Below the pieces are notes generated by a model. It ran no database searches, had not been told where the DNA came from, and saw nothing but the letters and a program-made list of their open reading frames with translations. Both the position numbers and the translations under genes were made by a program. 64,000 nucleotides of DNA. It comes from Dyella lutea (GTDB taxonomy: Bacteria > Pseudomonadota > Gammaproteobacteria > Xanthomonadales > Rhodanobacteraceae). Positions 19,198 to 40,685 of the stretch are shown here, piece by piece (the first letter of the stretch is position 1; each line of letters opens with the position of its first letter). Location of the stretch: contig NZ_JAMZEK010000001.1 in NCBI RefSeq assembly GCF_024158035.1, positions 910,001 to 974,000 on the forward strand, read 5' to 3'.

Positions 19198-21048
19198 TCA
19201 TCGGCTGTAGCCGAGGCGGTCGATCATCGGTTGCAGCAGCGGGAGTACCGGCTCGAACTGCTCGCGATAGCCCTGCCAGCGGTTGACTGCCCCTGGATGG
19301 ATGCCCTGGGTGACCTGGGCGTAGCTTGGGGTGCTGATGAAGCGCTTGGTCCGGGCATGGTCCGCAAAGCGGGCCATGGGCGACGCATCGGCGACTTCCA
19401 GAAATGCAGCCAACTCGGCCAGCTGCCCGTCCAGGTTTTCCACGACCGATTCATAGCGCCACTCGAGCACCCGTGGCGCGAACACCTCCATTTGCCGGAA
19501 CCACTGTTCGAAGGCGGCGACATACCCCCGCGCGAGCCGTTGCAGGGACGAGCACAGCACCATGAAGGCCGGCGAGCGGAACGACTGCATGGTGCAGCTG
19601 AGCAGCACGTCGCAGGGGTGGCGCAGACACAGGACGATGCGCGCCTGCGGGAACAGCCGCATGATCATCGGCAGGCAAAGCATGTTGAGTGGATTCTTGT
19701 CGACCAGCCGGCGTTGCCCAAGATCCGGCAACACGCGCCCGACCATCCGGAAGTAGGTTTCCCGCAACTGCGCGACCTCGGTCCCGCTCAGGTTCGCCAG
19801 GTCGGCGGGGTAGTGCTGGCCGACCTGCTCCATGCGCTCCGTCAATTCATGAATGAAGGCTCGCTCGTCCATCGAGCGGAAGTCCGGATGGGCATCCAGC
19901 ATCTGCTCCAGCAGCGTGGTGCCCGAGCGAGGGAAACCAACCACGAAGACCGGACTCTGCCGGCTGGCAGGGGCGGCCATTGGCCTCCAGCGGGCATACG
20001 CGACGCGATCGACTTCCGCCATCTGCAGCGGCTGGCTGTCTTGCGCCAGAAGTTCCGGCACCACCTCGCGTGCGATCTCCAGTTGCGCGGCATGGGCGGC
20101 GTGCGAGGCCTGCCAGGCGTCGGCGTGTTGTCCTTGACGATCGCACGCCGAGGCCAGGCCGAAGCCGGCGCTGGCACGTGCCTCGGCATCCACCCCGAGC
20201 GCGAGAACGCGCCGGTACAGCGCCGCGGCCTCGCCCCAGGCGCCAGCGCGCATTGCCAGCGCAGCGTGCGCGCGCCAGCCTTCGGCCCGTAGCTGGCTTG
20301 CATCCGCCGGTAGCGCGTCGAGTGCGGCCGGCGGCACCTGCTCCAGTTCCCGCCGTGACAGTTCCACTTCGTTGCTTCGCTCGTAGAGCAGGGCGCGCTG
20401 GGCGGCGATGCGCAGCCGCAGCTGCTCATCTGCGGGCGGGTCAGGCAACTTCGCGCGTGCCAGCGTGCGCAGGGCCGCCTCCAGGTCTCCCTGGGTCGAC
20501 AGCATCGCAGCCAGGATCAATGCCTGCTCCGCCGGTTGGGCGGACCAGTCGCCGGCCCCGGCCAGCATCGCTTCCTGACCGGTGTTGTCCGCGCAGACGT
20601 AACAGGCGTACGCGGCCTGCAAGCGGGCCTCGACAAACTCCGGCGAGCGGTCCACCGCGTCGAGCAGGATTTCCCGCGCCAGTGGCCAGCGGCGCTGCTG
20701 GATATAGAGCAGGCCCAGGTTGTAGAGCACGTCGGCGTCGTCTGGCGCGAGCGACCTGGCCTTCGCCAGGGCCTGCTCGGCAGCACCCATGTCACCCATC
20801 AACCGGCAGGCGACGCCCAGGTTGTTCCAGTAGGCGGAGACCTCCGGCCATTGATGAGCCAGCTGGCGAAAGGTTGTCGCGGCGCGGTCGTAGCGGCCGG
20901 TGGCCTGCTCGGCCAGCCCGCGCAGTATCCGGACGCCCTCGTCGACCTCCTCGACGGCCTGCGCGGCCAGCGTGATCACACGCTCCATGTCGCCGGCCTT
21001 ATAGGCGTCGGCCATGGCGCTGGCGAGGTGGGCGGCGGGATCCGGCAT
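19198..21048 (-). CDS. TPR-repeat sulfotransferase
   Basis: About 616 residues in two parts. The N-terminal ~350 residues are tetratricopeptide repeats (for example WNNLGVACRLMGDMGAAEQ). The C-terminal ~270 residues are a PAPS-dependent sulfotransferase, with the 5'-phosphosulfate-binding loop VVGFPRSGTTLLEQM and the 3'-phosphate-binding segment LRHPCDVLLSC. TPR-sulfotransferases of this kind resemble protein tyrosine sulfotransferases (family knowledge); the substrate is unknown. The start at 21048 follows GAGAGACGC; 21078 is an alternative. It lies 3' of a TonB-dependent receptor and a TPR-hydroxylase on the same strand. Confidence 0.88.
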   Translation of the reverse strand: MPDPAAHLASAMADAYKAGDMERVITLAAQAVEEVDEGVRILRGLAEQATGRYDRAATTFRQLAHQWPEVSAYWNNLGVACRLMGDMGAAEQALAKARSLAPDDADVLYNLGLLYIQQRRWPLAREILLDAVDRSPEFVEARLQAAYACYVCADNTGQEAMLAGAGDWSAQPAEQALILAAMLSTQGDLEAALRTLARAKLPDPPADEQLRLRIAAQRALLYERSNEVELSRRELEQVPPAALDALPADASQLRAEGWRAHAALAMRAGAWGEAAALYRRVLALGVDAEARASAGFGLASACDRQGQHADAWQASHAAHAAQLEIAREVVPELLAQDSQPLQMAEVDRVAYARWRPMAAPASRQSPVFVVGFPRSGTTLLEQMLDAHPDFRSMDERAFIHELTERMEQVGQHYPADLANLSGTEVAQLRETYFRMVGRVLPDLGQRRLVDKNPLNMLCLPMIMRLFPQARIVLCLRHPCDVLLSCTMQSFRSPAFMVLCSSLQRLARGYVAAFEQWFRQMEVFAPRVLEWRYESVVENLDGQLAELAAFLEVADASPMARFADHARTKRFISTPSYAQVTQGIHPGAVNRWQGYREQFEPVLPLLQPMIDRLGYSR

Positions 21049-21084
21049 GCGTCTCTCACTCGAAGTCGGCACCCGCATTATGCA

Positions 21085-21116
21085 AGAGGGGCCGCGGTGT
21101 GACCCACGGCCCCTCT
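21085..21116 (-). terminator. Hairpin after the TonB-dependent receptor
   Basis: Ten-base-pair stem AGAGGGGCCG / CGGCCCCTCT lies downstream of the receptor stop (minus strand) and before the sulfotransferase start. The following T run is short (TTGCAT), so it may be a weak terminator or an attenuator between the two genes. Confidence 0.4.
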
Positions 21117-21160
21117 GGATGCCATCAAGGCCCTGCGGCCTTTGCCGGCGTGCTACGCCA

Positions 21161-24040
21161 TCAGAACTTCACCGTCGCGCGGGCCCAGTAGTAGCGTCCG
21201 AGCACGTCGTAGGTGGCGGTGTCCACGTTGTAGTTCGAACCGTTCTGGTACAGCAGCGGCGGTTGCTTGTCGAAAATATTGTCCACGCCGATGTCGAAGC
21301 GGGTGTGGATCGACGGCACCGCATAGCCCAGCTGGAACGAGTGGTAGATCACCGAGGCCACCGGGATGTTCACGCCGGAAATGGCGGCATCGGCATTGAG
21401 GGCGGTCAGGTGGTTGATGTAGCGCGACTGCCACTGGGCGTTCCAGTTGCCCTTGTCCCAGTTGAGCGTGACCGTGCCGCGCCAGCGCGCGATGTTGCCG
21501 AACTGCGGGGTGAACGTGCCGGCGTAGTTGATGGTCTTGGCTCCCGGCTGCCCGGGGGTGGCATTGACGTTGTACGTGGAGGTGTAGCTGGTATTCAGCG
21601 CCGCCCGGAAGTTGCCCGGGTCGATGCTGCCCACATTGAAGTGCGGCAGCTTGTAGCGCAGCGTGTAGTCGATGCCGCTGGTGCTGAGGTTGCCCAGGTT
21701 GACCACCGGGGTGTTGATCAGGAACACCTGGCCGGGCTGCCGGCTGGTGTTGTCCTCGCGATGGATGAACGAGCAGTACGGGCTGGCGCTGTTGTTGAAG
21801 CACGAGCTGACGACCGTATCGGCCTGGATGGCCGTGAGGGTGTCGGACAGGTAGATATGCCAGAAGTCGAGGCTGGTGGACAGGCCCGGCAACCAGTCGG
21901 GGTCATAGACCAGGCCCACGTCGATGGACTTGCCCTTTTCCGGCTTCAGCTTGGCCCCCACCGTGGCCGCACCGGAATAGAACGTGTTGACCTGCGCCGG
22001 CGAGTTGCCTGCCCAGTTCACCGGTACGTACTGGCAGGCCGCGGGATGCGCCGCCAGTTCGGCCGCGCTCAGCCCGACGCAAGGGTCGTTGAGGTTCGGC
22101 TGGACCAGCGTGCGGCCATCGTAGAGCTCGTTGAGATTAGGCGCGCGGAACACCTGGGAGACCGTGCCGCGCACCAGCAGGTCGTCGGTCGGACGCCATT
22201 CGATCGCGAGCTTGCCGTTGGTGGTGGTGCCGGTGGTGCTGTAGTTGGAGCTGCGCACGCCCAGGTCGATGTTCAGCGAACGGGCCCAGGGCTTGTCCGA
22301 AAGCAGCGGGATCAGCGTCTCGGCGAAGATTTCCTTCACGTCAAAGCTGCCGCGCCCGGGCGAACCGCAGGCTTCCTGCAGGATCTGGCAAGTGGTCGTG
22401 ACCGGATTGAGCACCGCGAAGTCGCTCACGGTGTAGTTCATGAACTGCTTTCGATACAGCGCGCCCACGGACAGCTGCATCGCGCCGGCCGGCAGGTCCC
22501 ACAGCTCGCCGCTGGCGTCGACCTGGGCCTGCTTGGTCGACTGGGTGAATACGTAGATCGGCGTCTTCACGCCCGCGCTCAACAGCGAGCCGACGGACGG
22601 ATCGGCCTGGTTGAAGATGTTCGCGCCGCCGTCGACGGCGGCCTGCAGCGCCGGGATATCGATCTCGTTGGTGTCGCGCTGGTCGCGCTTGGTGTGGCTG
22701 TAGTTGACCGAGGCGTCCCAGATCCAGCTGCTGGTCTGGCCGAAGTTGCCGCGCAACCCCGCGTTCACCTGTCCGGTATTGGTGGTGTAGCTGTGCACGC
22801 GCGTGCCGGCACCGGTCAGGCGGGTCTGGAAGTTGTAGCCGCTGTTCGGGTCGCCGGCGACCGGGTTCTGGCTGAAGGTGATGCCGAACGGATTGATCGG
22901 GTTGCTGGAGGAGATGATCAGGCCATCACCGGTGCCCACCGGCGAGGGCGCATCCTGTCCGCTCGACACCGTGTGGTTGTAGAACGCATCGACGAACGCG
23001 GTGACGTTGTCGGTGATGTTGAAGCTGCCCAGCACGAAGCCATTGGTGCGCTTCTGTGCGGTCTGGATGTAGTTGAGCGCCGCGTAGTTGTAGGTGTCCG
23101 AGGCCAGCCGGCAACGGTAGTCGCCGAGCGCCGAGCCATCGCCCGACGCCAGGGTCACGTTGGCGGTGCCCGACGAATTGATGTCGCAACCGTACTGGCT
23201 GGCGATCGACGCCGGCACCTGGATGCGGCCGGTCGGGATCGAGCTGGAGCCGGCCGCCACCACGGCACCGCTGGACAGGTACAACTGCTGCCGGGAGAAC
23301 CTGCGCCGCGCGGCCAGCGTCGCGTCGTACTTGTTGTAGTCCAGACCGGCGGCAATGCTGTACCGGTCGCCCGTGGTGCCTGCAGTCAGGTTGAACCCGT
23401 GCCGCTTGGCGTCGCCGTGGCTGGAAATGCCGTCATTGAGGCTGAACTGCGCGCCCTTGTAGTTCTTGCGCAGGATGAAATTGACGACGCCGCCGATCGC
23501 GTCGGAGCCGTAGACAGTGGACGCACCCTCGGCCAGCACGTCGACCCGCTCGATCATGTCCGGCGGAATCAGGTTGATGTCCGGGTTGGACATGCGCTGA
23601 CCGTCCACCAGCACCAGCGTGCGATTGATCCCCAAGCCGCGCAGCGAGACGCGTGAGGCTCCGTCGCCGGCCTCGAGCAGAGGGCTGGCCACGCCGCCGC
23701 CGTTGCTGTTGTTCTGTGGGTTGGTGGCGTTGCCCGAAATGCTCGGCAACTGCTGCAGCACGTCGCCAAGCACGGGCTTGCCCGAATTGGTGAGGGTCGA
23801 TCGATCCAGCGTCACGACCGGACTGGCCGTTTCCACGTCGACGCGCTTGATCAGCGAGCCGGTCACCACCACCGACTGCAGGGTTTTCGCGTCCTTCTTG
23901 GACGGTGGTGCCGTCTGGTCGGTCGACTGCGGATTGTCCGGCGTGGTGGCTTGCGCCTGCGCCGCTCCTGCCACCGAGAAAATCCCCGCGCACAACGCGA
24001 GGCGCACTGCCGAAGACAAGCGATTCAAGTCGTATTTCAT
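21161..24040 (-). CDS. TonB-dependent outer-membrane receptor
   Basis: A 959-residue TonB-dependent receptor. It has a signal peptide (about residues 1-29, AQAQA), a TonB-box-like segment followed by the plug (SVVVTGSLIKR to about 230; conserved RGLGINRTLVLVDGQR and EGASTVYGSDAIGGVVN), then a long 22-strand-type barrel ending in aromatic ...RATVKF. No N-terminal STN signalling domain is seen. The plug type with 'VVVTGSRI' is typical of xanthomonad and sphingomonad receptors that import oligomeric nutrients. GGGGAGA precedes the ATG. Neighbours are a sulfotransferase and an Asp/Asn hydroxylase. Confidence 0.95.
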   Translation of the reverse strand: MKYDLNRLSSAVRLALCAGIFSVAGAAQAQATTPDNPQSTDQTAPPSKKDAKTLQSVVVTGSLIKRVDVETASPVVTLDRSTLTNSGKPVLGDVLQQLPSISGNATNPQNNSNGGGVASPLLEAGDGASRVSLRGLGINRTLVLVDGQRMSNPDINLIPPDMIERVDVLAEGASTVYGSDAIGGVVNFILRKNYKGAQFSLNDGISSHGDAKRHGFNLTAGTTGDRYSIAAGLDYNKYDATLAARRRFSRQQLYLSSGAVVAAGSSSIPTGRIQVPASIASQYGCDINSSGTANVTLASGDGSALGDYRCRLASDTYNYAALNYIQTAQKRTNGFVLGSFNITDNVTAFVDAFYNHTVSSGQDAPSPVGTGDGLIISSSNPINPFGITFSQNPVAGDPNSGYNFQTRLTGAGTRVHSYTTNTGQVNAGLRGNFGQTSSWIWDASVNYSHTKRDQRDTNEIDIPALQAAVDGGANIFNQADPSVGSLLSAGVKTPIYVFTQSTKQAQVDASGELWDLPAGAMQLSVGALYRKQFMNYTVSDFAVLNPVTTTCQILQEACGSPGRGSFDVKEIFAETLIPLLSDKPWARSLNIDLGVRSSNYSTTGTTTNGKLAIEWRPTDDLLVRGTVSQVFRAPNLNELYDGRTLVQPNLNDPCVGLSAAELAAHPAACQYVPVNWAGNSPAQVNTFYSGAATVGAKLKPEKGKSIDVGLVYDPDWLPGLSTSLDFWHIYLSDTLTAIQADTVVSSCFNNSASPYCSFIHREDNTSRQPGQVFLINTPVVNLGNLSTSGIDYTLRYKLPHFNVGSIDPGNFRAALNTSYTSTYNVNATPGQPGAKTINYAGTFTPQFGNIARWRGTVTLNWDKGNWNAQWQSRYINHLTALNADAAISGVNIPVASVIYHSFQLGYAVPSIHTRFDIGVDNIFDKQPPLLYQNGSNYNVDTATYDVLGRYYWARATVKF

Positions 24041-24236
24041 GTGTTCTCCCCGGTGATGTAGTCCCTGTCATTCCCCTGCTTTTTCAAGCGTCCCGAGTAT
24101 GCCAGCAAGGACTGTTCGCCCAACAAGTGCCTGGCGCCTGTTCCGGCGTAGGGAGGCGGAGCATTCAGGTGTCCGCTGCGCAAGAACATGAGAGCGGTAT
24201 GGAGCCGGCTGTCGGCGCGCCAGGCGGGCGGCCGGG

Positions 24237-25565
24237 TCAGGGTGCAGGCGCGGGCCGGTTGAAATCCCCGATGGCCGCGACCAGGTCGGTCACCGCCAGC
24301 CGCTCCGCTTCGGTCAGGTCGGGGTTCCAGCTGTCCATGATCAGCACCACGCGGGTCTGTCCGCTGCGGTTCCACGCCTCGTGCTCATAGGTGTCGTCGA
24401 AGGTGACGCAGCGACCCTCTTCCCACACGTGGGTCTGGCCGCCCACGCGCAATGCGCAGTCCGGTGGCACGGTGAGCGGAAGGTGCGTGACCAGGCGGGT
24501 GTTGGTCACGCCCCGATGCGGCAGGATGTGGGTGCCGGGGCGCAGCACCGAATAGAGGGTCTCCGGGGCGTGGTCGCGAATCCGCACCAGCGGCAGGGTA
24601 TCCAGCAATGCGCTGGTGCGCGGGCAGCGCGCGCAGTTGTCGTCATAGCGTTCGCCGTGCCGGTAGAAGAAGAACGCATCCCAGCCAGCTTCCTGCGCGC
24701 CGGTGGACTCGAGCAGTCGCGCCGCTTCTGCCTCGGCGGGGGGCGCGCCGAGGAATGGCTCGAGCGGGTCGTCGGCGTCTGCCAGCACGGTGCGCAGCTC
24801 CCCGCGGATGGCCTCGACTGCCGCCTCCAGCCGGGCGTGTTCGGGAAAGCGCTCGTGCGGATAGAACGGCTGGCTGGGTACGCCGGGGAAATACAGGAAC
24901 AACGGACGCTGCCGAGGATCGGGCAAAGGAGGGGGCAGTTCGTGCAGATAGATGGCCAGGCACTGGTCGACCCGGGCCAGCTCCGCGCGTCCGTAGCGCT
25001 GGCGCAACGGTTCGATGACCGCGTCGAACAACTCGCGGCGTCCTGCGGCGACATACCTGGCGGCGTGCTTCACGGCATCGCGCAGGCCCGGGGCCGTGGT
25101 CTCGTCGCTGAGCCAGCGCCCCTGTGCCTGCGCGGCGTTGATTGCACCGAGGTAGGTGCGGATGGCCTCGTGCCGCAGCCCCTGTTGCTCGAACACGACA
25201 CCCAGCCGCAGTCGCGCGACGAACATGCCCGGCGCCAGTTCCAGCGCCTCACGCAGGCTGGCTTCGGCACCGCGCCAGTCGCCGCTCTGCACCTGTGCGG
25301 CCCCCAGCTGGTGCAGGACGGCCGGATCGCGGGGGTGGGCGCGCCGGGCCGCGCCCAGTCGCTCGATCGCGCCGGCCGAGTGGCCCCGTTCAAGCTCGCG
25401 CGAGGCCAGGAACAACAGCGCCTCGGCATCGTCGGGCAGCTGTTCGATCAGGCGTGCGAAGGCCTGCTCGGCCGACGCCGCATCGCCGCGCTGCCATGCC
25501 TCCAGTGCCTGCGCGCGGCAGCGTGCGGCGTGGTCGTGCGGATTCCGGTCGGTCGGTGCGTTCAT
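24237..25565 (-). CDS. TPR protein with aspartyl/asparaginyl beta-hydroxylase domain
   Basis: A 442-residue protein. The first ~190 residues are TPR-like helices (AEQAFARLIEQLPDDAEALLF and repeats). The rest is a Fe(II)/2-oxoglutarate-dependent AspH-type dioxygenase. The first iron His is in ILPHRGVTNTRLVTHLPLTV and the second in FDDTYEHEAWN, with the R/D block after it (TRVVLIMDSW). AspH-type enzymes use two His and no Asp ligand (family knowledge), as here. The start is the ATG at 25565; the open frame to 26357 is only the shadow of the M17 gene. It ends about 200 bases before the receptor gene on the same strand. Confidence 0.88.
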   Translation of the reverse strand: MNAPTDRNPHDHAARCRAQALEAWQRGDAASAEQAFARLIEQLPDDAEALLFLASRELERGHSAGAIERLGAARRAHPRDPAVLHQLGAAQVQSGDWRGAEASLREALELAPGMFVARLRLGVVFEQQGLRHEAIRTYLGAINAAQAQGRWLSDETTAPGLRDAVKHAARYVAAGRRELFDAVIEPLRQRYGRAELARVDQCLAIYLHELPPPLPDPRQRPLFLYFPGVPSQPFYPHERFPEHARLEAAVEAIRGELRTVLADADDPLEPFLGAPPAEAEAARLLESTGAQEAGWDAFFFYRHGERYDDNCARCPRTSALLDTLPLVRIRDHAPETLYSVLRPGTHILPHRGVTNTRLVTHLPLTVPPDCALRVGGQTHVWEEGRCVTFDDTYEHEAWNRSGQTRVVLIMDSWNPDLTEAERLAVTDLVAAIGDFNRPAPAP

Positions 25566-36702: not shown

Positions 36703-36862
36703 CTAGAAACTCCGCAGAGAGCGGTACCCACCTCCGTCAAACCGGTGGGTTTTTTGTGCCTGCACGGTTGCGGGCACAAGCCGACGTGATACCTGCGTCG
36801 GGAGGGCGGCTAATACAACACCCGCAAGGGGAATACGCCCGCCGGCTCTCTGCGGTTTCTAG
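36703..36862 (+). ncRNA. Structured leader RNA, C4-antisense-RNA-like, before the XAC0095 gene
   Basis: A 160-base region closed by a long outer stem: CTAGAAAC(TC)CGCAGAGAGC at 36703-36722 pairs with GCTCTCTGCGGTTTCTAG at 36845-36862. Inside are at least four hairpins: ACCCACC/GGTGGGT followed by TTTTTT (terminator-like, 36726-36756), GTGCCTGCA/TGCGGGCAC (36757-36778), CCGACG/CGTCGG (36781-36801), and a GGGCGG arm pairing with CCGCC around a CCC-GCAA-GGG tetraloop. The ACCTCCGTCAAACCGGTGGG hairpin with its T run, and the later segment CTAATACAACACCCG, resemble the phage P1/P7 C4 RNA class and the leaders of P4-like ash/icd genes (from memory). The XAC0095 gene starts 61 bases after it. Confidence 0.65.
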
Positions 36863-36922
36863 CCTCCCGACTTCCCGTCGCCATCCAGGCGTGCGGGTAC
36901 TTCATGGAACGAGGAGGCGAGC

Positions 36923-37878: not shown

Positions 37879-40227
37879 TCAATGCCACGGCAGGGGGATG
37901 GCCCGGCTGCCTGGCGCACCTACCGGATACCAGCCGCCCGGATAAGCCCATTCGGTGGTCATCGTTCGTGGCGCGGCGCCGGAAGTTTCCGCGTCACCGG
38001 TGAAGAGGCCGCCGGTCTGGATGGACAGGCGATTGGGATCCAGGGCATACAGCGCAGACGCAGGCGACTGTCCTCCGGTGACGAGATAGCTGGCAGCTTG
38101 CGGGTTGTCCACCCACAGTCCTCCATACCACGCTTGGGTGCTTTCGAAGCCGGTCTGGTTTCCGGAGGCATCAAATGTGCGGTTGAGGATGAGTGCACCG
38201 CCAGCGCCGTCGCCGTTCCACTCCAGGCCGATTCCCTTGCCCGCGGTTCCGCCCCCCAGCGCCCATGCCTGGGACAGATCGAATCCTGCATAACCGTGGC
38301 TGTTCAACTCTGTACCCAGGTCATACGACCGGAACGCGGAGCCGAGCGAGTCCCAGATGTAAAGATCCTTTGCAGCACTGCTCCAGAGCACGCTGATCCG
38401 GTTGGTCGGAGTGAAATAGCCCACCGCCATGGGGTAATAGCCGCAGGCAATCTGGAGGGTCCGTGCGCCCTTTCGCACGCTCCCGTTCATCAACCAGTAG
38501 CCGAACTGGCATTCGGACGGATTCAGCCAGAGCAGATCGTCCTTGCCGTCACCATCGACATCGCCGGCACCGACCAGTTGCCACCCCGCCGGATAATTAT
38601 ACGAGCGCACTGACCGCCAACCGCCATTGCGATTGTTGGTCCAAAGCCAGAGATCGTGATTGCTGCTGGTGAACATCAGGTCGGTATAGCCATCTCCGTC
38701 GAAGTCTCCCATGGCGCCCACGAAATAGCCCGGCGAGATGTTGAAGGTTCGTGCACCCGTGCGTCGTACCGAAGGGTCGGCCAGTGATGCCGCGCTGGCT
38801 GGTTGCATGGTCCAGTAACCGAGCTGGCTCGTCCCGGGGTTGAACCAGAGCAGGTCCGAGACGCCGTCGCCATTGAAGTCGCCCGGAACGCGTGTGGTCC
38901 CCGGAACAGCATTGGTCGCATGGAGCACCGGAAGCGTGTCGAATGAGACGAGCGGAACGTAGGCACTGGGGTCGGCAGTCACGTTGACGGTCACGGTGCC
39001 GTCGGCCCAAGCCTGCCCATAATGGACACGGTAGACGAAGCTGTCCTGGCCGTCGAAGCCGGGTGCCGGAACGTAGGTGGCGACGTCGCCTTTGACGAAG
39101 ACCTCGCCGTGCCCCGGCTGGGTGCGGATGTCATAGGTCAGCGGGCCATTGTTGCCAATGTGACCCTGCAGGGTGATGTCCACCCGCTGTCCGGCCGTGC
39201 TTGAACTTACATCGTCCGCACCGAGACCTGCGAAGAGGCGCAAGTAGCGCACTCCGTCGGAGAAGCGCGCAAGCAGCATCGAGCCATCGCGGGAGATACG
39301 CAGCGGTTGCCTCGCATCGACCGACCAGACCGGATGTGCGAATTGGACGCCGAAATCGTAGGTGGTCAGCATTGAGTAGTTCGTCAGGTCATAAACGCCG
39401 AGCAGGCTTGAGCCGTCGAAAGCAAAGTAGCCAACCGGGAGGACGGGATCATCCACCGACGCAGTGGGATAAAGGGTGCCGTCGTGGATCGAAATTATCC
39501 CCCGACTGTTCTGATCGTAGATGCCGTACCCATTCAGGGTGAAGCGGCTCCCGTCTGCATTCGTGGCGATCGACGTGTTGTAGGTCGAGGTTCCGAAAAG
39601 GTAGCTGCTCTGCGTGCCAGTGCGCGCGTTGTAAAACCTCCACGGTCCGCCCGAGTCGTCGCCCTCGGCAATGCCGACGATTCGACCGTCTCCGCTGGTG
39701 GACAATGCAGCCGGCGCAAACGGGTCGAAGCCGGGTGCGGTGAGCCGGGTGAACGAGCCGGTCTGCCCGTCGAGCTTCCTCAATGGCATTGGGCCCGAGC
39801 CCGAAATGGACGTGGTGACCAGCAGGTTGCCATCACGCGTATATGCCAACTGGTATACGCCGGCCTCCAAAGGTTCGGCGGTATCCGAGCTCACGGTATC
39901 GACAAGGGTGTCCAGGTCGATCAGATGCACCTTGACCGCGATGGCGTCGCCATCCCCTGCGGCGAGGGTGTGCCCGTCGGGCGACAGGTCGATACCCGTC
40001 AGGGGGCCGCCCGTGATGGTGATTGGGGTCTGGAACGAGCTCGACGCCAGGTCATAGCGCAGGACGCTGTTACCGTCCGCCATGTAGATCATGTTGCGAT
40101 GCGCATCGTAGGCGATGTCGCTGACCAGATGATCAATGGGGATCAATGTCGCGTCAGCCGCAAAAACCGCCACAGGAACAAATACCGTCAAGAGCGCCAC
40201 GAGCGCCCGCATCCAATGCCTGCCCAT
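37879..40227 (-). CDS. Secreted FG-GAP/VCBS-repeat protein with N-terminal beta-propeller-like region
   Basis: A 782-residue exported protein. After a signal peptide (MGRHWMRALVALLTVFVPVA, cleavage near VFA-AD), about 350 residues look like a WD/YVTN-type propeller (DIAYDAHRNMIYMADG, LSPDGHTLAAGDG). A cadherin-like segment follows (VDITLQGHIGNNGPLTYDI), then FG-GAP repeats with calcium-loop motifs: DFNGDGVSDLLW, DFDGDGYTDLMF and DVDGDGKDDLLW. The last ~350 residues are paralogous to the whole mature protein at 53285. I start at 40227 (GGGGA eight bases upstream). The role is unknown; adhesion or surface binding is typical for FG-GAP proteins. Confidence 0.85.
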   Translation of the reverse strand: MGRHWMRALVALLTVFVPVAVFAADATLIPIDHLVSDIAYDAHRNMIYMADGNSVLRYDLASSSFQTPITITGGPLTGIDLSPDGHTLAAGDGDAIAVKVHLIDLDTLVDTVSSDTAEPLEAGVYQLAYTRDGNLLVTTSISGSGPMPLRKLDGQTGSFTRLTAPGFDPFAPAALSTSGDGRIVGIAEGDDSGGPWRFYNARTGTQSSYLFGTSTYNTSIATNADGSRFTLNGYGIYDQNSRGIISIHDGTLYPTASVDDPVLPVGYFAFDGSSLLGVYDLTNYSMLTTYDFGVQFAHPVWSVDARQPLRISRDGSMLLARFSDGVRYLRLFAGLGADDVSSSTAGQRVDITLQGHIGNNGPLTYDIRTQPGHGEVFVKGDVATYVPAPGFDGQDSFVYRVHYGQAWADGTVTVNVTADPSAYVPLVSFDTLPVLHATNAVPGTTRVPGDFNGDGVSDLLWFNPGTSQLGYWTMQPASAASLADPSVRRTGARTFNISPGYFVGAMGDFDGDGYTDLMFTSSNHDLWLWTNNRNGGWRSVRSYNYPAGWQLVGAGDVDGDGKDDLLWLNPSECQFGYWLMNGSVRKGARTLQIACGYYPMAVGYFTPTNRISVLWSSAAKDLYIWDSLGSAFRSYDLGTELNSHGYAGFDLSQAWALGGGTAGKGIGLEWNGDGAGGALILNRTFDASGNQTGFESTQAWYGGLWVDNPQAASYLVTGGQSPASALYALDPNRLSIQTGGLFTGDAETSGAAPRTMTTEWAYPGGWYPVGAPGSRAIPLPWH

Positions 40228-40685
40228 TCCTTTCCCCTGAAGCCCACCGCCGAGGTGGGTGTGTGCACGGATTAAACAACGCCGGCATTCTCGCACGAGG
40301 CCGCGCCAGCGTGACAAGACGTCCATGTAGGGCATTCCGGAGAACTACCCGAGGCAAAGAAAGCAGGGGGCAGAGTCTGAGGTTTCCCTCAAAAAGGGGA
40401 CGTGGCTAATTAACTCCGGTCGACTAAAGGGGACGTGGCTAATTAAATCCGGATAACGGGGCGTGGCTCGCTGAGGCGGGTCAAGGCTCCCCGCTCCACA
40501 CAATGGAGGAGACCCCGGGCTCTGCCCTCTCTTTCGATTTGATGGAACGTGGCCCCCCACTCTCGTCGTCAGCGCGTCGGCCTGGACGCTGGAGCTGCGG
40601 CGAGCGGGATGTCCGAGCTGCCGGCGTGGTGGCGCACAAGCTACGATGGCGTGTCGATGGTGACATCCAGGGAGAGGGAGCAGTC
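40228..40685. other. Intergenic region with repeats between FG-GAP and DUF5671 genes
   Basis: About 460 bases with no supportable gene. It holds the divergent promoter zones and the repeat cluster at 40358-40468. The stretch 40490-40685 has an open frame continuous with the DUF5671 gene but no signal of coding before the ATG at 40686. Confidence 0.6.
40391..40468 (+). repeat. GGGGACGTGGCTAATTAA element, two full copies and a partial third
   Basis: Head-to-tail copies start at 40391 (AAAAAGGGGACGTGGCTAAT) and 40425 (TAAAGGGGACGTGGCTAATT), each followed by AA(C/A)TCCGG. A degenerate third, AACGGGGCGTGGCT, is at about 40455. Just before them, at 40358, lies AGAAAGCAGGGGGCAGAGTC, a unit of the second repeat type also seen at 44.25 kb. 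Confidence 0.75.

Follow-up and report, generated by a model that had tools for sequence, protein, structure and literature searches.

In Caulobacter, the TonB-dependent receptor (TBDR) CciT needs the cytoplasmic oxygenase CciO (PMC12004947). Together with Fiu-YbiX and PiuA-PiuC, it exemplifies a TBDR adjoining a cytoplasmic Fe(II)/2-oxoglutarate (2OG) oxygenase, an arrangement described as conserved across Proteobacteria, with CciT function depending on the oxygenase (PMC12004947, PMC12004943). Cherry et al. found CciT protein reduced without CciO and its mRNA unchanged, and in the sections consulted both papers leave the mechanism open, with models that concern ligand or iron supply and not the receptor protein (PMC12004947, PMC12004943). 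Bacterial protein tyrosine sulfation is described for RaxST-RaxX of Xanthomonas (PMC6637879). Here we analysed a locus of Dyella lutea, lying in a 64,000-nucleotide stretch of contig NZ_JAMZEK010000001.1 ('the window'), in which a TBDR gene is flanked by genes for an AspH-type Fe(II)/2OG hydroxylase (AspH) and a sulfotransferase (ST), both enzymes carrying tetratricopeptide repeats (TPRs). What sets it apart from CciT-CciO is a TPR-bearing oxygenase of AspH type (PF05118), and a TPR-sulfotransferase as the receptor's most regular partner.

The genes are transcribed in the order AspH, TBDR, ST, with intergenic gaps of 196 and 82 bases (Table 1). A sequence-only reading of this DNA had placed three minus-strand genes together between positions 19198 and 25565, with N-terminal TPRs on both enzymes; gene coordinates and Pfam, including TPR matches in AspH and ST, agree with it on both points. 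The downstream ST start is the probable one because gene calls give 616 residues here and in three close relatives. Among the papers listed by a literature search, whose coverage excluded most subscription papers and bioRxiv, none described a TBDR with a TPR-sulfotransferase and AspH. In Xanthomonas, SapC, cupin and halogenase genes presumably neighbour some TBDRs, though that search turned up no such locus.

Judging from match counts and a rotation test, which counted in the window's own genes, the grouping exceeds chance in this genome (15 ST, 3 AspH and 34 Plug matches). A Plug match is found no more than 8 kb away from eight of the 11 best ST matches, where 1.3 would be expected (p = 0.001), and no more than 5 kb away from five of the 11 (p = 0.01); for all ST matches the figure is 8/15 within 8 kb, against 1.8 expected (p = 0.003). 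AspH is found near ST in two of three cases (within 5 kb, p = 0.004). Its proximity to Plug (1/3 within 8 kb, p = 0.31; 2/3 within 10 kb, p = 0.07) is not significant, the numbers being too small. The same genome holds a second cassette (L016) ordered receptor, ST, ST, ST, AspH, its AspH being 60% identical to that of the window, and two more loci with ST beside a receptor (L013 with one ST, L014 with three).

The grouping also recurs well beyond this genome. Families were called with hidden Markov models built from this genome's copies (for TBDR also from relatives) and run on stop-to-stop frames; open reading frames (ORFs) of at least 50 residues (at least 40 in L232-L311) were called in the wide comparison, with an in-house gene caller that fails in some loci (L119, L124, L137 and L139). 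A receptor search of 60 genomes, including this one, kept the best locus from each of 30; within 1.5 kb of the receptor, ST occurs in 16/30 and AspH in 4/30, a count that leaves out a 110-residue TPR-only match in L068. Among the receptor orthologues (n = 9, 63–100% identical), ST adjoins every one. AspH searches covered the order (151 genomes, of which 48 matched at E 1e-20 when short relatives are counted; 39 TPR-type loci taken), the phylum (299 genomes, 17 at E 1e-30; 19 loci) and named GTDB genomes (the best 80 of at least 560 loci). After removal of three exact duplicates from 138, this gave 135 TPR-type loci, which are not independent and do not include the window's genome; TPRs were confirmed by Pfam for the window and L016 enzymes, and elsewhere 'TPR-type' rests on the length of the match or reading frame.

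The proximity of TBDR and 2OG oxygenase that is conserved for CciT-CciO is seen within 6 kb in 66 of these 135 loci. ST lies within the same distance in 58, TBDR plus ST in 48, and a TBDR accompanied by one or more further enzymes in 54. The TBDR density of the window's genome would predict 12%, although sphingomonads may be denser. As a control we took short, lipid-type AspH relatives, which have a TBDR nearby in 0/15 loci; in the 13 of these loci that were scanned, the best NCBIfam model was OlsC or LpxO for 14/14 proteins, at 73–418 bits, below cut-off. Among those best 80 named loci, a TBDR lies near AspH in 27/45 gamma-, 4/5 beta- and 8/21 alphaproteobacterial cases, 2/8 without a class and 0/1 in Terriglobia. 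The receptor and enzyme genes thus form a recurrent unit, as these counts support, and because the grouping recurs in many bacteria the cassette is probably a working unit. The sequence-only reading had pointed to similar neighbourhoods in Caulobacter and Xanthomonas; they do exist in sphingomonads and other alphaproteobacteria, but the Caulobacter vibrioides control genome has no PF05118 match. Its basic observation was right, and is stronger than could be known from the window alone.

Some AspH contexts are clearly different. In some other families of the order (L143, L147-L151) the AspH gene comes after one whose product has an FHA domain (a Pfam assignment made for L149 alone), and its role there is perhaps different. 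In Brevundimonas (L291, L292, L299, L300) a TPR-type AspH lies near ribosomal-protein and SecE genes, at the same site in several Brevundimonas, with no TBDR in the stretch examined.

Receptor and enzymes do not diverge to the same degree. Across 34 cassettes, pairwise identities of the receptor correlate at 0.96 with those of the adjacent ST and at 0.66 with those of AspH (bootstrap range of the difference 0.21–0.41); for distant pairs alone the values are 0.74 versus 0.42. Within 12 three-ST cassettes, the receptor-adjacent ST correlates with the receptor at 0.99, the other two ST at 0.85 and 0.90, and AspH at 0.87. The presence of AspH on a tree of 64 receptors requires at least nine changes. 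Given these correlations and changes, ST seems dedicated and AspH seems shared. Such frequent gain and loss of AspH, like the several different enzyme sets that receptors carry overall, is what a shared neighbourhood without shared function would produce; we regard mere hitch-hiking of this kind as highly improbable, since it is opposed by recurrence in three classes, the second cassette in the same genome, the empty control and the rotation result for the 11 best ST matches.

The family and fold of the enzymes support, as the sequence-only reading had proposed, a protein-modifying type for both, in the case of ST also through its predicted structure. ST has no evident signal peptide, and its model shows a fold like that of the tyrosylprotein sulfotransferases (TPST1/2) with a 5'-phosphosulfate loop and a catalytic Glu; fold alone shows no function, and tyrosine is the probable sulfate acceptor. 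Partial ST matches occur in 47 plasmid records, none covering 80% of the query.

The window AspH exceeds the PF05118 cut-off of 22.6 bits by far, and no PF13640 match is listed for it (a comparison of family models alone, not an alignment to CciO). His350, His361, His395, Arg357 and Arg405 are invariant in an alignment of 22 sequences; we take His350, His361, His395 and Arg405 to be the iron and 2OG ligands. For the catalytic part, the nearest proteins of solved structure are AspH entries. At the Arg357 position, Arg occurs in 15/15 TPR-type proteins and Val, Ile or Met in 14/15 lipid-type rows, the fifteenth row not being displayed and L172 lying outside the set; Arg357, Trp413 and Leu417 are as in the solved AspH entries and set the window enzyme apart from lipid-type relatives. 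By these residues the pocket is of the protein type, not the lipid type. The enzyme is probably cytosolic, as no signal peptide is evident. Animal AspH has a TPR part and a two-His iron site with Gly, and the window AspH likewise has both, in addition to the shared PF05118 catalytic domain and one conserved substrate-side Arg. It differs in lacking an evident membrane anchor, in having a partner protein without an EGF domain, and in carrying Val in place of a second Arg that we take to be substrate-side.

It could be argued that these enzymes act instead on a lipid or glycan of the envelope, one that supports the receptor. Glycans are acceptors of many sulfotransferases, and the top NCBIfam models for the window AspH are OlsC (104 bits) and LpxO (75 bits), far under their cut-offs of 450 and 500. 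Given the AspH-like pocket residues and the fact that lipid-type relatives were never beside TBDRs in the control loci, we consider this very unlikely.

We tentatively propose a receptor-centred modification unit, made up of a cytosolic ST dependent on 3'-phosphoadenosine-5'-phosphosulfate and an Fe/2OG-dependent AspH. The TPR domains of both enzymes would grip an unfolded polypeptide, to which ST would add sulfate, probably on Tyr, and AspH a hydroxyl, with Asp or Asn the probable acceptor. As client, the receptor precursor is the likeliest candidate: modified ahead of Sec export, it would give a mature receptor with the altered surface residues that ligand binding or assembly would need. ST would be dedicated to its own receptor, and AspH would be a looser partner serving several receptor types. 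That the substrate is a polypeptide seems likely to us; that it is the receptor itself we put forward with reserve, on the strength of linkage, enzyme type and exclusion.

Several observations weigh against this proposal. On the sequence-only reading the three genes should stay together across genomes, which holds for receptor and ST but not for AspH, found beside 4/9 receptor orthologues, the other five having none within 20 kb; likewise, 69 of the 135 TPR-type AspH loci lack a TBDR within 6 kb. Gene linkage by itself makes trees agree and can produce part of the co-divergence. CciT is still produced without CciO, and the authors of that study propose ligand models instead (PMC12004947). No acceptor site was found in the receptor, the searches for one being negative or inconclusive. 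A [DN][YF]xC motif at receptor residues 307–310 lies, in the structure model, within a long loop (239–328) between two barrel strands, which we take to be extracellular by the usual alternation of loops, and occurs in 36/37 AspH-linked and 17/27 other receptors. It was rejected as proof: 10 of the 11 receptors without D/N form one clade, and a test on independent pairs does not back it. The motif is almost missing from AspH-linked receptors of other subfamilies (1/30 anchored, of 35), in a comparison whose control failed, just 5/30 control rows being anchorable. A 10-residue Cys ring resembling EGF targets of AspH, C[FY]x[ND]xxSP[YFL]C, was rejected as the AspH target because it is kept in AspH-less receptors; the ring C(x8)C is also altered in many AspH-linked receptors. 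Column scans (Tyr against ST, D/N against AspH, Pro against prolyl 4-hydroxylase) gave nothing significant among the results listed for the seven columns tree-tested.

Could the client instead be encoded elsewhere, as a small peptide for secretion or as some other protein, its modified form being imported, exported or sensed by the receptor in the manner of RaxX? TPR-bearing TPST-like and AspH-like enzymes would suit peptide clients, and RaxST-RaxX is a known case of bacterial tyrosine sulfation (PMC6637879). Two uncharacterised envelope protein families also recur by cassettes (11 and 7 of 169 loci), neither of them among the window's neighbours. The sequence-only reading had seen no obvious precursor peptide, and none emerged from our search: the intergenic spaces of six orthologous loci hold no conserved small ORF, and no cassette-specific small ORF appears among the recurrent neighbours of the 169 loci, where ORFs below 40–50 residues were not called. 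Four of the five small families among those neighbours are DUF2093, L7/L12, L17 and SecE, the fifth being a protein of about 100 residues from five related loci with no Pfam match. In contrast to RaxST-RaxX, neither a precursor peptide nor a RaxAB-type exporter was seen at this locus, where the partner is a receptor; no peptide exporter was found among the scanned neighbours of the window cassette, and no RaxAB-type peptidase-containing ABC exporter among six annotated flanking genes, the rest of the genome not having been searched. We judge this explanation rather unlikely. The sequence-only reading had framed the locus as a peptide-modifying import or export system: a modifying unit around the receptor is likely, but the peptide was not seen. 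Of its two options for the enzymes' target, the receptor itself or a small peptide, we tentatively find the receptor the likelier; no direct evidence of import or export of a peptide was seen.

A further alternative places the enzymes' action on the receptor's ligand: in the cytoplasm they would make, detoxify or degrade it, be it a small molecule or a peptide taken up from outside, a kind of role proposed for CciO, PiuC and YbiX. The models of the CciT-CciO authors are ligand synthesis, inhibitor removal or substrate oxidation (PMC12004947), and several cassettes have peptidase genes close by (M17 and M1 in the window, M20 in L013, M16 in L014, S15 in L131). The peptidase neighbours were rejected as a sign of peptide import, since the M17-HAD-DegQ block also stands beside the AspH-less receptor orthologue L155; because it stays where AspH is missing, the block probably just marks a chromosomal site. 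With TPRs on ST, AspH and the Oxy_5 oxygenase described below, the TPST-like fold and the AspH-type pocket all indicating polypeptides, we find this explanation unlikely.

Besides the three families, further enzymes of a similar kind occur. Clustering of neighbours in the 169 loci, some of them overlapping, gave a prolyl-4-hydroxylase-like oxygenase of about 196 residues in 20 (PF13640 for L116, presumably the family of PiuC and YbiX too), a TPR protein with a 2OG-FeII_Oxy_5 domain in 14 (PF13759 for L141, L220, L276 and L288) and a family of about 344 residues in five, with a sub-threshold sulfotransferase match only. The L128, L131 and L144 cassettes also include methyltransferases.

The first of the two envelope families, of about 175 residues, is probably secreted, lies near AspH or TBDR and is weakly VasI-like in Pfam; in most members a Cys is followed shortly by an RLxC[YF]D motif. 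The second, of about 350 residues and also probably secreted, adjoins the receptor in 5/7 loci; all seven members end PY[VI]xYxQDL, and the two scanned have no Pfam match. It is a possible receptor partner or client.

In the window, the AspH gene starts 47 bases past the stop of the M17 aminopeptidase gene, and genes for a HAD phosphatase, a PBP-like/LysM protein and a DegQ-type protease also lie 5' of it; 3' of ST are an M1-type peptidase and, on the opposite strand, a tail-specific protease. A hairpin in the TBDR/ST gap may set ST expression lower than that of the receptor. The RNA fold of 21075–21165 has z = -4.25, and the inverted repeat is kept, by eye, in L152, L113 and L153; the terminator scan did not list the hairpin among its sites. 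A simple promoter scan found no promoter. Elsewhere in the window, an ORF with FG-GAP repeats and a bacterial Ig domain (37879–40335, minus strand) likely encodes a surface protein, and positions 36797–36879 match the sRNA-Xcc1 small RNA family (RF02221, 78 bits).

Table 1. Features of the window cassette and members of two recurrent envelope families
Feature	Coordinates	Strand	Description
AspH (P0004; TPR + AspH-type Fe(II)/2OG hydroxylase)	24237-25565	minus	442 aa; PF05118 158 bits + TPRs
TBDR (P0002)	21161-24040	minus	959 aa; Plug + TonB_dep_Rec_b-barrel; signal-peptide-like N-terminus
ST (P0001; TPR + sulfotransferase)	19198-21078, probable start 21048	minus	626 aa; PF13469 118 bits + TPRs; TPST-like catalytic domain (predicted) ~aa 369-626
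13-bp hairpin, TBDR/ST gap	21085-21116	minus	terminator- or processing-like; without clear U-run
~175-aa family members	L311:11151-11678, L310:2069-2593, L214:10608-11141, L141:8824-9249 and others		
~350-aa family members	L186:5153-6193, L178:11759-12892, L184:14945-16015, L132:10831-11862 and others		

TBDRs are usually regarded as unmodified barrels, and the present cassettes extend the CciT-CciO puzzle to sulfotransferases and AspH-type enzymes. It is conceivable, though we think it doubtful, that they form a bacterial counterpart of the side-chain modifiers of the animal secretory pathway, in which cytosolic TPR-guided enzymes would carry out TPST-like sulfation, AspH-like Asp/Asn hydroxylation and prolyl-hydroxylase-like oxygenation of outer-membrane receptors that have yet to be exported, every receptor having a sulfotransferase to itself, across gamma-, beta- and alphaproteobacteria. 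If receptors, or a peptide that they handle, are indeed sulfated and hydroxylated by dedicated cytosolic enzymes, then nutrient uptake, the binding of phages and colicins, and recognition at the cell surface would come under a further level of control that was not expected, and this may answer why TonB receptors sit beside cytoplasmic oxygenases such as CciO, PiuC and YbiX.
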